Source: Zarea fungicola (taxonomy: Eukaryota; Ascomycota; Sordariomycetes; Hypocreales; Cordycipitaceae). From it: a stretch of 64,000 nucleotides of DNA. Both the position numbers and the translations under genes were made by a program. This document shows, piece after piece, positions 25,912-45,948 of this stretch (the stretch's first letter is position 1; each line of letters begins with the position of its first letter). The stretch lies in assembly GCA_900169235.1 (NCBI GenBank), contig FWCC01000240.1, forward strand, positions 1 to 64,000. Reading direction: 5' to 3'. The notes beneath the pieces are model-generated. The model was not told the origin of the DNA and did not search any database. It saw only the letters and a list, made by a program, of their open reading frames with translations.

Positions 25912-28340
25912 TTAAATTCCGTTTGCAATCCCGTTCCGATTTACTCCATTCCCATTTCCAATCCCGTCAAGGTATACACGTTCCAAAAATATAACCTTGC
26001 TATCGTAATCACCACCGTCAAATCTATGCTGGATGCCACCGTTCATGAGAGTAGCACCTGTGTATGCGCCGCGACCATCAATCATGTACGTAGCAGAAGG
26101 GTTGAGACCCTGCAGGCGGAGGTATGGGTAGTTGTGCACCGAAGTGGCGCGGATCTGGAACGCGAATAGAACAGCCTGTGAGCCGTCTTGGGAAATATAC
26201 ATCACAGCCGGGTAGTTGGACTCGGAGGGTAAGTTGAGGCGCCACATGTCACCACGGATGACAATGGGGTTGACCTTTTCCGCGAGGGTGACGAGCTCTG
26301 GGATCTGGCTCTTTTCATCCGCCGGGATAACGGGAGGGTTTAGCTCGAAGCCAAAGGCGCCCGCCATCATGGCGACGTGAGCGCGGAATCGTAGTGGTGT
26401 GGTGCGCTTGTTTATTTCGTTGGGCACGGCCGACACATGAGCGCCCATGGTTGAGGCCGGGTAGACGAGTGATGTGCCAAACTGGATGTGGATGCGGTCA
26501 AGCGCGTCTGTGTTATCAGACGTCCAGACCTGTGGGAAATACTGCAGCATGGCGGGGTCAAAGCGGCCGCCACCAGAGGCACAACCGTTCCAGAGTACGT
26601 CGGGGAAGCGGGTTGTGAGCTCCTTGAATACGCGGTAGATGCCGATACTGTACGTATGGTGGTTGCTCGGGGAGGGGCTCTCATGCGTGCCTCTGTTGTG
26701 ATCCCACTTAATATAGGTCGCTGGTATTTCTTTGAGAATCTTGGTCAAAGAGTCGATGATAAAGTCCTGCACTTCAGGGAGCGCAAGGTTGAGTATGAGC
26801 TGCTGGCGACACTCGGTGCGAGGATAGTCGCCCGCATGCAACACCCAGTCAGGATGTTCAGTGTAGAGCACAGACTTGGGGTTTACCATTTCAGGTTCAA
26901 CCCAGAGTCCAAACTGCAGCTTTTTAGGCGGATTAGCGGCATCCTTGCCCGAAGCGGCTACGTCTAGCTGCAAAATCTTCTCCGCAAGAGACCCGAGCCC
27001 ATTGGGGAACCGGGTTGTGTTGACCTGCCAGTCACCGAGACCTGCATGGTCGTTGATGCGGGGGTATTTGTTGCCGAACCATCCGTCGTCCAAGACAAAA
27101 AGTTTGACACCCAGATCGGCAGTTTCCTGGGCAAGTTTGTAGATTGTAGACTCGTCAAAGTCAAAGTATAACCCTTCCCAGCTGTTCAGGAGGACAGGGC
27201 GAGTCTCGTTGACAAACTTGCTCTTGATGAGGTTCTGGCGGTAGAGACGGTGGAACTTGCGTGACATGTCGCCGACACCTGCGTCGGAGAAGACACACAC
27301 ACACTCGGGGGTGGTGAAACTTTCGCCTGGCGCGAGGGGCCACGAGAGCTGCTCTGGGTTGATCCCCAACATAGCACGAGTGATGCCCTGTGGGCTCCGC
27401 TCGACCTCGGCGCTGAAGGACCCGGTATGGACGAGCGACATACCCCAGATATCGCCATGGGTTTCGGTGGTCGTGGAGGCAACAACTGCCAGGAAGGGGT
27501 TGTTGTAGTGGGACGAAAAGCCAGTGGCGCTACCGAAGCTGGTAATAAGTCAGTAAGAGATCAGAAGGCAGACTGTCAAGTAGCGTATGTGGATTTGCTC
27601 ACCCCTGTGTTCCATAGTCGACCTTGCGACGGGTTTGTGTGCATTCTCTTGTCCATTCGCCGCGCAGCTGGAGCAGGTCGTACTCGTTATGTGGTAAATC
27701 GACACTGAAACTAGCCAATTTCTCAATTGTCACCGTCTCGTTGCTTTCATTCGTCAACCGTGTACTCCTAGCAATGGCATTGTGCTCTGGGAAAATAGAG
27801 TACGCCAGTTCCGCCCGAATGGAGCTGTGGCTGTCGTGCATGTGAATAACAAGCGTGGTGGCCTCGTCCTCAGTGGCGAAAGTCGCTGGCAGCCCAGGCA
27901 AGTCCGGTTTTCCAGCAATGATGCTGTAGGAGGTATACTTGAACTGGCTCACGTCGTGGCTCGCCGTATGTCTGATACGCACTGCAGGGGAGCGGTAGTC
28001 GCCGCGGCCGCGGTCGGGAAACTCGCGACGCAGGTGTTCCTGTCCAGAGTAGCCGCCGCCATTAGGCTTGATTTCGGCAATTGGGTCGCCTGTGACGAGG
28101 GCACCAAAATGATCTGCGATGAGGTCTCCCGTGGTTTCGTCAATGTGGAATCGGTATGAGACGTTTGCACCGTTGAGCGCAAAAAAGTTGCCCTCCACGA
28201 CAACGGCTGAAACGAATGTGCTGTTAGCGACAGTATTTTCCTGCAATTTTTTGAGATAAAGATTGAAACTTACGTGGCAGTCTCAGACCCGCGCCAAGGC
28301 TGGCTCCATTGCCAATTCCATTGACAGCCTGTCGAGTCAT
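25912..28340 (-). CDS. cytosolic alpha-galactosidase, family GH36
   Basis: Three exons on the minus strand: 28274-28340, 27603-28206, 25912-27538; 765 aa, a normal GH36 length. The first exon codes only 22 residues; its acceptor at 28207 restores LRLP-PVVVEGNFFALNG. No signal peptide, so cytosolic, as in fungal AglC-type enzymes. The beta-supersandwich N-domain spans to about residue 330; the barrel carries NSWEGLYFDF, DDGWFG, GLWVEPEMV, KWDHNR with nucleophile Asp503, and TSDNTDA with acid/base Asp565. It should remove terminal alpha-1,6-galactose from raffinose-type or other galacto-oligosaccharides after uptake. N- and C-termini carry similar Asn-Gly-Ile repeats (VNGIGNG and DGIGNGNG). First member of the carbohydrate cluster that extends to 45948. 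Confidence 0.93.
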
Positions 28341-28594
28341 GGTGAAGCGTTTCTCGAGGTAAATGTGAGGACCTAGACGACAGCAAGTTCCTAAGGAGAA
28401 TGTCTCAACTGCCTCAGCTTTACCTCAGTTTAACGAGAGCGCCAGCGCCTCTTCATGTCGCAGGCGGTCAAAAATATTATATACTAGATACGGTGTCTCC
28501 ATACAAATGACTTGGCCTGTTTGCTTTCGGAGTACGGGTTTCTCCAACAACTTTCCGAATAAATGCCCTTGAATTCATGCGGTGACCCGCACTA

Positions 28595-44070: not shown

Positions 44071-45948
44071 TTAGTAGCCGTTGCTCTTCTTCAGGTGCAG
44101 AAGCTGCGAGGCACCCTCGGTGAGCGACGCAGTGTACGACTTGGTAACCTTTGTAGAGGCGCCGGTCCAAATGTCCGTAAAGGTCCAGGTGCCCGAGATG
44201 CCCAGGTCGGCGAGCGACACAGTCACGTCCTGCTTGCCGTAGATCTTCGTGCCGAAGCCGCCCTGGCCCTGGTCGGGGCCGTAGTTGGCGACGAGGACGT
44301 ACGCCTCGGAGCCGTCGTTGGACGGGCCGCCGATCCACGCCTGCAGCTGCTTGGCCAGGTTGCCGCCGGTGCCCGGGTTGCGGGGCTGCACGGGGTACTT
44401 GGCGAAGAAGTTGGAGGCGGCGACGGACTGGCCGCTGGTGATGAGCTTGCGGCCCAGGTCGTCGAGCGCGGTCAGGTCGGAGCCGAGGATGAGGTTGGCG
44501 GCGGCGCCGAGCCAGTGGTTCATGACGGTGGTGCGGATGCTGTCGTTGACGCCGGTCAGGCCCTCGGCGTTGCCGACAAAGAGGCTGTCCAGGTCGGGGT
44601 AGGTGGTGACGGGGACGTTGCGCTGGGCCTGGAGGGCAATGTACTGGCGGTAGTTGTTGATGGCGCGCTGGCCGACCTGCCAGGCCATGAAGGTGTTGGT
44701 GCCGTAGTTGTTGAGATCCTGGTCGGTGCGGAGAGAGTCGGCGAGTCCGCTCCAGACGGGAAGCCAGGTCTCGTTGCGGCAGAGCTTCCAGGAAATGTCG
44801 AGGCGGATCTGTCGGCCCGACCTCGTGATGGCCGTCTCGTACGCCTTGACGGCAGCAGAGCTGTCGCATGCCAGGTTGGCTCCGTTGGAGGGACTGCCGG
44901 GAGTGATGAAGTCGAGCTTGATCATGTCGACACCCCATGAAGCCCACAGCTTCACGACCGAATCGTGCCAGGTCTGCGTGTCCTTCTTGGTGAAGTCAAA
45001 GTCGCAGAAGATCTGGTTGTTGTTGCCGTTCAAGACCTCGCTAATCTTGGTCTTTGTTCCAAGAATGGTCTTGTTGGCAGCAATGCACGGAACGCCGGGG
45101 GTAACATAGACTCCGAGCTTGAGCTTACGCTGGTGCAGCCAATCGCCGAGCTGTGGGAGGTTGAATCGAGTGGTGTTGTAGATGATACGACCGTTCGCAT
45201 CGACGTCGTTGAAAGCCTGCCAGCCTGAGTCGAGACTGCAAAGGTCGTAACCAGCGGCTCTGAAGGCCGGCGAGCCGAGAACACCGCACTGTGTCTCGAC
45301 AAACTTCTGGTTGTAGTTGAGGCCAGCTTGTCCAGCGAAGGATGGCACGACAGCTGATCCGTTCTGAAGTGCCTGCACACCGTAGGTGTTCCAGCCCCTG
45401 GCAGCGGCAGTGAAGCCATTAGGAGTCTTGGCCGTCTTCACGACCTTGAGGGGTCCGCCAGGAGAAGCTGCGGGCTCGGGATAGCACTCTGGAAGACCCG
45501 AGTCGCGGTTCTGGATGCAGTACGGAGCAGGGTGGGTTGGGACAACGTCCGTTCTGCTAGCATCTTTTGTGTAACAAGCGTCCCCAGCAGCAATCCAGTA
45601 CCACTGGTTGTCGCTGAAGCCCCAAGTTCCCGACGTCTGCCCGCTGAGAACGCACAAGTCACGGATGTCTTGATAGGCAATGACGGCGTCGTTGTTCTGG
45701 TTGGCACCGGTGGCTCCAAGGTTCGCCTGCTGCTGCATGAACAGGTTTCCGTGGCCATCGTTGCAGTCTACCAAGCTGGCGTTGGCCTCAAACTTGGCGG
45801 CACAGTCTTGGATCGCATTGTAGCATGCAAGTGTGAAGTTGACAGTGCCTGGCTGGTAGAGGTTGCCGCCGCAGTTCGTCTGGCCTTTGACCAATTGAAC
45901 AAGGGCAGCGCCAGCGACGATTGACGAAGAGATTCTTGATGAGACCAT
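44071..45948 (-). CDS. secreted alpha-galactosidase, clan GH-D (GH27, AglD-like)
   Basis: Single exon, 625 aa from the ATG at 45948. Signal peptide MVSSRISSSIVAGAALVQLVKG. A cysteine-containing N-terminal domain of about 150 residues precedes the barrel, which starts with ARGWNTYGVQAL. Motifs: YDLCSLDSGWQ, KLGVYVTPGVPC, CDFDFTKKD, VDMIKLDF with nucleophile Asp346, and SLRTDQD with candidate acid/base Asp411 four residues after Arg407. The C-terminal beta-sandwich ends QLLHLKKSNGY. GH27 retaining enzymes remove terminal alpha-galactose; related members act on beta-L-arabinopyranose, so that alternative remains. As the only secreted hydrolase in the cluster it would trim polymers or large oligosaccharides outside. 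Very high GC third positions create long false frames on the opposite strand. Confidence 0.9.
   Translation of the reverse strand: MVSSRISSSIVAGAALVQLVKGQTNCGGNLYQPGTVNFTLACYNAIQDCAAKFEANASLVDCNDGHGNLFMQQQANLGATGANQNNDAVIAYQDIRDLCVLSGQTSGTWGFSDNQWYWIAAGDACYTKDASRTDVVPTHPAPYCIQNRDSGLPECYPEPAASPGGPLKVVKTAKTPNGFTAAARGWNTYGVQALQNGSAVVPSFAGQAGLNYNQKFVETQCGVLGSPAFRAAGYDLCSLDSGWQAFNDVDANGRIIYNTTRFNLPQLGDWLHQRKLKLGVYVTPGVPCIAANKTILGTKTKISEVLNGNNNQIFCDFDFTKKDTQTWHDSVVKLWASWGVDMIKLDFITPGSPSNGANLACDSSAAVKAYETAITRSGRQIRLDISWKLCRNETWLPVWSGLADSLRTDQDLNNYGTNTFMAWQVGQRAINNYRQYIALQAQRNVPVTTYPDLDSLFVGNAEGLTGVNDSIRTTVMNHWLGAAANLILGSDLTALDDLGRKLITSGQSVAASNFFAKYPVQPRNPGTGGNLAKQLQAWIGGPSNDGSEAYVLVANYGPDQGQGGFGTKIYGKQDVTVSLADLGISGTWTFTDIWTGASTKVTKSYTASLTEGASQLLHLKKSNGY

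Follow-up and report, generated by a model that had tools for sequence, protein, structure and literature searches.

Sequence analysis of a putative import-first fucoside gene cluster with MAL-type permeases and a MalR-class activator in Zarea fungicola

Which sugar might bring together two MAL-type permeases, a Zn2Cys6 activator and four hydrolases within 20 kb of the genome of the fungus Zarea fungicola? The genes lie at positions 25912..45948 of a stretch of 64,000 nucleotides, denominated here the window, with which contig C349 (121,392 bases) begins; the genome searched consists of 43.1 Mb in 456 contigs. A preliminary description of this DNA had proposed a MAL-like cluster rebuilt around alpha-galactosidases and an enzyme of the alpha-L-fucosidase family GH95, and all seven genes that it listed were confirmed by Pfam searches and gene models (Table 1). 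The explanation favoured here, to which we assign a probability slightly above even, is that of a catabolic cluster under a MalR-type activator, which would import alpha-L-fucosylated and probably O-acetylated oligosaccharides before degrading them. This explanation is built on computed evidence of five kinds: the gene content, the leaderless GH95 and GH36 proteins, the sharing of contigs and the matched divergence of GH95 and activator homologues, the presence of a GDSL esterase beside the activator in one other species, and a promoter motif common to the cluster genes.

Gene content and proposed working of the cluster

Leaders and signal peptides were called by eye throughout. GH95 and GH36 are leaderless by this measure, as had been noticed earlier, and import before defucosylation is the likely order of events. 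The GH36 protein starts with MTRQAVNG, the first exon being read across a canonical intron. Among the matches listed, its closest named relatives are found in Thelonectria, Mariannaea, Neonectria and Fusarium, and most of the nearest homologues similarly start without a leader; P0253, P0254 and P0264, for instance, which are less closely related, have hydrophobic starts. The nearest solved structure is 6jhp. The GDSL esterase, whose sole solved match is IAH1 (3mil, 81 bits), is probably cytosolic, as it lacks a leader. The N-terminus of the GH27-like enzyme resembles a signal peptide, and its supposed secretion can be retained. The label of alpha-galactosidase given to it is not secure, because the sequence is divergent, as is evident from the Melibiase_2 score in Table 1 and from the best solved match, a GH27 beta-L-arabinopyranosidase reaching only 40 bits. 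Homologues of the activator named SUC1 or BglR are found among its best 65 matches. GH36 and permease 1 form a divergent pair of their own, and permease 2 and GH95 a second one, with a shared promoter.

The cluster would work from the outside inwards. The secreted GH27 and other enzymes would release short fragments outside the cell, and one or both of the MAL-type permeases would import them. Once in the cytosol, the fragments would lose acetyl groups to the GDSL esterase, terminal alpha-L-fucose to GH95 and alpha-D-galactose to GH36. The Zn2Cys6 activator may sense the imported sugar, and switch on the structural genes via CGG-(9 nt, AT-rich)-CGG sites. The specificities assigned to the enzymes and the cargo assigned to the permeases are putative.

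Linkage of GH95, activator and GDSL esterase in other fungi

Linkage was monitored by a proxy, that is by searching for protein matches located on contigs of exactly identical size (the size given for a match being that of the longest contig behind it), and was also read from locus tags and from a single gene model in which two genes are fused. The contig comparison covered 74 GH95 matches (P0001-P0074 of the 120 listed), 65 activator matches and 119 GH36 matches; GH95 matches from P0075 on, mostly bacterial but including P0085 and P0090 from Chaetothyriales, were left out. GH95 and activator matches form 18 pairs on equal-sized contigs, the pair of the window and 17 others. The 17 shared contigs measure 11 to 32 kb (four), 55 to 124 kb (seven) and 345 kb to 2.3 Mb (six), and only the short ones imply that the two genes are close to each other. 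Three additional pairs reside on contigs of near but unequal size, which indicates that sizes can approach by chance. The members of the pairs diverge in parallel. Identities to the window GH95 and activator are, for example, 81/79, 79/76, 78/78, 65/66 and 62/61 per cent, and the two distance matrices correlate with an r of 0.90 over the 18 pairs, a value that was reached in 0 of 5000 permutations. As a control, 119 of the best 120 of 6395 GH36 matches were compared in the same way (P0215 is without a contig), and none was found on a contig of the same size as any GH95 or activator match (0/119); this control is weak, since unspliced GH36 fragments on metagenome contigs would be expected to rank lower than these 120.

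Named carriers of linked GH95 and activator genes are Rasamsonia, Talaromyces, with T. proteolyticus, and Hyphodiscus. In Rasamsonia byssochlamydoides, which belongs to the Eurotiomycetes, the two genes correspond to locus tags 2211 and 2213. In Oidiodendron maius, a member of the Leotiomycetes, one gene model of 717 amino acids (P0155) reads first as a GDSL esterase (48% identity, 259 amino acids) and then as the activator (43%), in the order and orientation seen in the window. A core of the cluster appears to be common to several distantly related fungi. The conserved neighbourhood on which the preliminary description had staked its proposal is supported for activator and GH95, and in one species for GDSL and activator; the ties of GH36, permease 1 and GH27 come from proximity and motif in the genome of Z. 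fungicola. The alpha-galactosidases can hardly be regarded as the centre of the cluster, as proposed there, the units linked elsewhere being activator plus GH95 and GDSL plus activator.

A CGG-N9-CGG motif in the cluster promoters

Sites of the type CGG-N9-CGG with an AT-rich core were found in the cluster promoters by a scan of CGG pairs. The published site of the yeast MalR activator Yfl052w has the same form, with an AT-rich spacer, within the CGC/CGG-N9-CG(G/N) pattern of MAL activator sites (PMC4172970), and the activator of the cluster plausibly binds the sites found here. The strict pattern CGGNNWRWTWHWCGG was obtained by merging, column by column, the four sites of the GDSL and permease 2/GH95 promoters and leaving two columns of the spacer unrestricted; it was written after inspecting the full set of nine CGG-N9-CGG sites in the promoter stretches chosen, and is therefore not blind. 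The window hosts 8 copies, each intergenic and ahead of cluster genes, where 0.13 are expected. In the whole genome there are 96, versus 118 for a reversed control pattern, and 8 of the 96 fall in the cluster itself, a span of about 20 kb where 0.045 are expected; hence the motif is not enriched genome-wide, but is packed at the cluster. Performance is poorer with the strictest unions. That of the four core sites recovers these four plus one of the remaining four, and that of the remaining four recovers only its own sites. The site at 37911, which has a GC-rich spacer, is outside the strict pattern, and the AT-rich site at 29926, located outside the promoter stretches first scanned, misses it by one letter.

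Most of the bias due to the choice of the pattern is avoided by a definition based on the literature, CGGN9CGG with at least 6 A/T in the spacer. Sites so defined number 9 in the 8,451 bp of intergenic DNA at the cluster versus 21 in 178,063 bp of other loci (Poisson ~1e-6); 8 are found in the remaining 55,549 bp of the window. None of the other CGG spacings from 5 to 15 has more than 2 copies in the same 8,451 bp.

Strict sites were also sought at paralogues of the cluster genes, in the 2.5 kb preceding each matched stretch, for a sample of 53 chosen loci rather than for every match. Sites were found at 4 of the 53, where 0.27 are expected. They lie 285 bp ahead of a GH27 paralogue on C94, 1,249 bp ahead of a GH95 paralogue on C370, 977 bp ahead of a permease 1 paralogue on C170 and 1,480 bp ahead of a weaker match to sugar transporters on C226. 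Of the 9 paralogue loci of GH36, GH95 and GH27, 2 have such a site. The GH95 paralogue (C370:57747-61198) is split over several frames, because of either introns or decay. Several CGG-N9-CGG sites are found upstream of the permease 1 paralogues on C170 (59-67% identical) and C301 (75% identical over the main part).

Table 1. Genes, predicted regulatory sites and repeat element of the cluster (window coordinates)
Feature	Position	Strand	Structure	Pfam evidence or location
GH36 alpha-galactosidase	28340..25912	-	765 aa; two introns (28273-28207, 27602-27539)	Melibiase, GH36N, GH36C
MAL-type sugar permease 1 (major facilitator superfamily, MFS)	31078-32831	+	557 aa; one 80-nt intron	Sugar_tr, 246 bits
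AT-rich repeat element	32944-33776		31-nt inverted ends, 87% complementary	between permease 1 and activator
Zn2Cys6 activator, MalR/SUC1/BglR-like	36052..34373	-	559 aa; intronless	Zn_clus, Fungal_trans
GDSL esterase, IAH1-like	37347..36532	-		Lipase_GDSL_2
MAL-type sugar permease 2 (MFS)	40319..38637	-	539 aa; one 63-nt intron	Sugar_tr, 232 bits
GH95 (alpha-L-fucosidase family)	41194-43557	+	787 aa; intronless	GH95 catalytic domain, 424 bits
GH27-like enzyme, divergent	45948..44071	-		Melibiase_2, 50.7 bits
CGG-N9-CGG site	28627..28641	+		GH36 promoter
CGG-N9-CGG site	30818..30832	-		permease 1 promoter
CGG-N9-CGG site	37521..37535	+		GDSL promoter
CGG-N9-CGG site	37644..37658	+		GDSL promoter
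CGG-N9-CGG site	40584..40598	+		shared permease 2/GH95 promoter
CGG-N9-CGG site	40791..40805	-		shared permease 2/GH95 promoter
CGG-N9-CGG site	46090..46104	-		GH27 promoter
CGG-N9-CGG site	46114..46128	+		GH27 promoter

GH95 relatives, comparable systems and competing explanations

The GH95 protein belongs to a subfamily marked by the motif YHLDxN, which occurs in these fungi and in Paenibacillaceae; GH95 paralogues of the same genome are 26-37% identical to it over the aligned parts. The subfamily is mostly leaderless, the majority of the 120 homologues listed having the domain at their very start; extensions are found in P0043, P0061 and P0092, late starts in P0024 and P0026. The catalytic residues, which we take from BbAfcA to be Glu, Asp and two Asn, can be located in part. 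E501, D683 and N373 are invariant in 19 aligned kin, and the position of the first Asn is occupied by Asp371. In a quick tree of 62 of the 120 GH95 matches and one own paralogue, featuring a very long outgroup branch, named fungi and named bacteria separate, and P0072 and P0073, first labelled as fungal, fall with the bacteria. Linked GH95 genes are present in both large fungal subclades. Bifiguratus adelaidae (Mucoromycota) has a GH95 (P0033, 50%) and an activator (P0154, 53% over 72%) on contigs of different size. The position of its GH95 among the Eurotiales in the quick tree is an observation apart, which suggests a possible transfer between fungal phyla. In Trichoderma, GH95 is counted with the families in which the share of lateral transfer is greatest (PMC5908196).

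The neighbourhoods of 80 Paenibacillaceae GH95 loci were surveyed for protein families encoded within 8 kb. An ABC sugar permease family is found at 49 loci and an AraC-type helix-turn-helix protein at 42. Short-chain dehydrogenases/reductases (SDR) occur at 21, MR/MLE-type dehydratases at 19 and FAH-family hydrolases at 10; at least one of these three is found at 22 loci, and all three at 8. GH36-like genes are present at 7. The FAH protein of one locus has as its best match 2,4-didehydro-3-deoxy-L-rhamnonate hydrolase (NCBIfam, 241 bits versus a cut-off of 500; solved relative 8gsr), and the MR/MLE protein of one locus matches acid-sugar dehydratases, L-fuconate dehydratase being included, not first. 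None of the proteins examined from one Paenibacillaceae locus reaches the NCBIfam cut-off for a fucose enzyme. These one-locus examples point, by their matches, to a putative non-phosphorylative 6-deoxyhexose route. Because of the ABC permeases, the acid-sugar genes and the prevalent lack of a leader, the bacterial GH95 kin look like importer-fed cytosolic glycosidases. They resemble the cluster in that their GH95 belongs to the same subfamily (42-45% identical), is mostly leaderless and is often accompanied by a regulator and a member of a sugar permease family, but differ from it in that the permeases are of the ABC and the regulators of the AraC type.

The cluster can be tentatively seen as the fungal equivalent of bacterial glycan systems in which import comes first, a reading that is possible but short of an even probability. 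A cytosolic fucosidase of a subfamily shared with Paenibacillaceae would have been joined to a GDSL esterase acting as deacetylase, to a MAL-type permease and to an activator of the MalR class, dedicated to the cluster and having its own CGG-N9-CGG sites; the set would have been kept across several ascomycete classes and extended here to alpha-galactosidases. If so, there would be a second fungal fucoside route, in which transport precedes hydrolysis, and the yeast MAL paradigm would extend to other sugars in filamentous fungi. The analysis names permease and activator candidates, and provides a predicted DNA site with a short list of genes outside the cluster.

Among published systems, MAL loci similarly host together a MAL-type permease, a Zn2Cys6 activator and a cytosolic glycosidase (PMC6070925, PMC4172970). 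They also have a divergent permease/enzyme promoter, represented here by that of permease 2 and GH95, and CGG-N9-CGG sites with an AT-rich spacer as for the MalR Yfl052w (PMC4172970), those of the cluster being predicted. The MAL-like logic noticed in the preliminary description is thus borne out by the permeases, the Zn2Cys6 activator and the MalR-type CGG-N9-CGG sites in promoters. So is the lack of a maltase. The cluster features GH95, GH36, GH27 and a GDSL esterase in place of a GH13 alpha-glucosidase, no GH13 was recognised by eye among the long open reading frames of the window, and the cluster is not classed as a MAL locus because this defining feature is lacking. At least two further loci combining a permease, an activator-like gene and a glycosidase are present in the genome, one of the MAL kind with GH13 (C432), the other with GH31 (C404). 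Their permeases are 38-45% identical to those of the cluster, and the strict motif is absent from the 10-kb stretches C404:56001-66000 and C432:1-10000.

The closest known work is that on FUR1, where fungal clusters that unite fucosidase, permease and regulator, of a type other than the present one, have already been described (PMC12370193). The Trichoderma reesei enzymes Afc95A and Afc95B, which are predicted to be secreted, act on the alpha-1,2-fucosyl-galactose bond of 2'-fucosyllactose and not on p-nitrophenyl fucoside; all four GH95 genes of this species respond to L-fucose via FUR1, an XYR1 homologue of 876 amino acids, and FUR1 clusters with a fucosidase, a permease and a regulator are described in Fusarium oxysporum and Metarhizium robertsii (PMC12370193). 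Common to both systems is a Zn2Cys6 regulator tied to GH95, to alpha-galactosidases and, in clusters, to a permease (PMC12370193). In contrast, the activator of Z. fungicola has 559 amino acids and kin named SUC1 or BglR, its GH95 is leaderless and its permeases are MAL-type. An assignment to the FUR1 type was not adopted, on the basis of the size and the named kin of the activator. No description of a cluster such as the present one was recognised in the open-licence literature, among the titles and abstract openings of the matches listed.

As for the substrate, fucose and acetyl groups fit plant side chains that carry both, as in xyloglucan. Alpha-galactose fits raffinose-family or galactomannan fragments better. 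Mushroom fucogalactan, suggested in the preliminary description as the food of a mushroom-feeding fungus, was rejected as the main reading; nothing in the analysis points there, the single paper listed by a literature search dealt with Trichoderma enzymes, and the named carriers Rasamsonia, Talaromyces, Hyphodiscus and Oidiodendron are presumably not mushroom feeders.

Several observations weigh against a single import-first fucoside cluster. The AT-rich element divides its span, and the membership of GH36, permease 1 and GH27 is drawn from proximity and motif in one genome. Equality in contig size is a proxy, and 6 of the 17 shared contigs, exceeding 300 kb, have little bearing on closeness. 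Trichoderma has a 62-64% identical GH95, yet no named Trichoderma protein is found among the 65 activator matches; in P. daleae, GH95 and a 41% identical activator-like protein are on contigs of different size. The GDSL esterase and the permeases of the window are without a match in the 80 Paenibacillaceae loci. The strict site is missing directly upstream of the activator, as well as in the stretches scanned at the GH36 loci C283 and C364 and at the GH95 loci C199 and C456, and other activators may use the box, because related CGG-N9-CGG sites precede permease 1 paralogues. GH95 carries Asp where several solved kin have Asn (YHLDIN motif). Finally, the scheme as a whole is a prediction from sequence.

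A competing explanation is that of two adjacent modules. One, conserved, would serve fucosides (activator, GDSL, permease 2 and GH95); the other, independent of it, would serve alpha-galactosides, as fragments of the raffinose family or of galactomannan (GH36, permease 1 and perhaps GH27). MalR-type activators would read both, though the substrates differ. The divergent pair of GH36 and permease 1 is cut off from the rest by the AT-rich element, leaderless GH36 proteins are widespread in Fusarium, Neonectria and Lipomyces, and GH36 matches do not share contig sizes with GH95 or activator matches in the weak control described above. However, the same CGG-N9-CGG motif is found ahead of genes of both modules, and there is only one activator within 20 kb. 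Two modules are regarded as unlikely, but are given sizeable weight because no single natural substrate, having to supply alpha-galactose, fucose and acetyl, explains all seven genes well. A different doubt concerns the fucoside label, which may be inherited from the name of the family. The GH95 family also includes alpha-L-galactosidases, and the cytosolic enzyme could free another sugar, such as L-galactose from alpha-L-galactosides; its solved relative 4ufc is, in our assumption, an enzyme of this type, and the active-site stretch differs by an Asp. The same Asp is found in the solved 8zbv, deposited as an alpha-L-fucosidase. The His of YHLD, which we take to be a fucosidase-type residue, is kept throughout the 19 aligned kin, and bacterial kin reside beside genes of 6-deoxyhexose type at 22 of 80 loci. 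Such a change of sugar is regarded as improbable.

Least probable is a chance proximity of genes drawn from large fungal families. The genome has 92 sugar-transporter matches to permease 2, and at least two more permease, activator-like and glycosidase loci (C404 and C432). Against chance stand the sharing of contigs and the matched divergence of GH95 and activator, and the packing of 8 of the 96 genome-wide motif copies in 20 kb, and this explanation was rejected. The import-first fucoside cluster is retained as the preferred explanation.

The AT-rich element is repeated in the genome. The copy on C271 is 98% identical over about 510 bp, and those on C175, C170 and C451 are near 90%; the C170 copy is located downstream of the permease 1 paralogue. 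Other sequences of the window lie outside the cluster. A second regulator of the Zn2Cys6 type, which shares 25% identity with the cluster activator over part of its length, is encoded at 14838-16798, and a short-chain dehydrogenase, recognised by eye, at 20642-21520, about 4.4 kb from the GH36 end. An adjacent L-fucose dehydrogenase gene (fdh1) is a mark of FUR1-type L-fucose clusters, and this short-chain dehydrogenase lies outside the present cluster. On the opposite side, a tandem coding-like repeat at 49354-49811 reads REDDEM or RRDER, depending on the frame.

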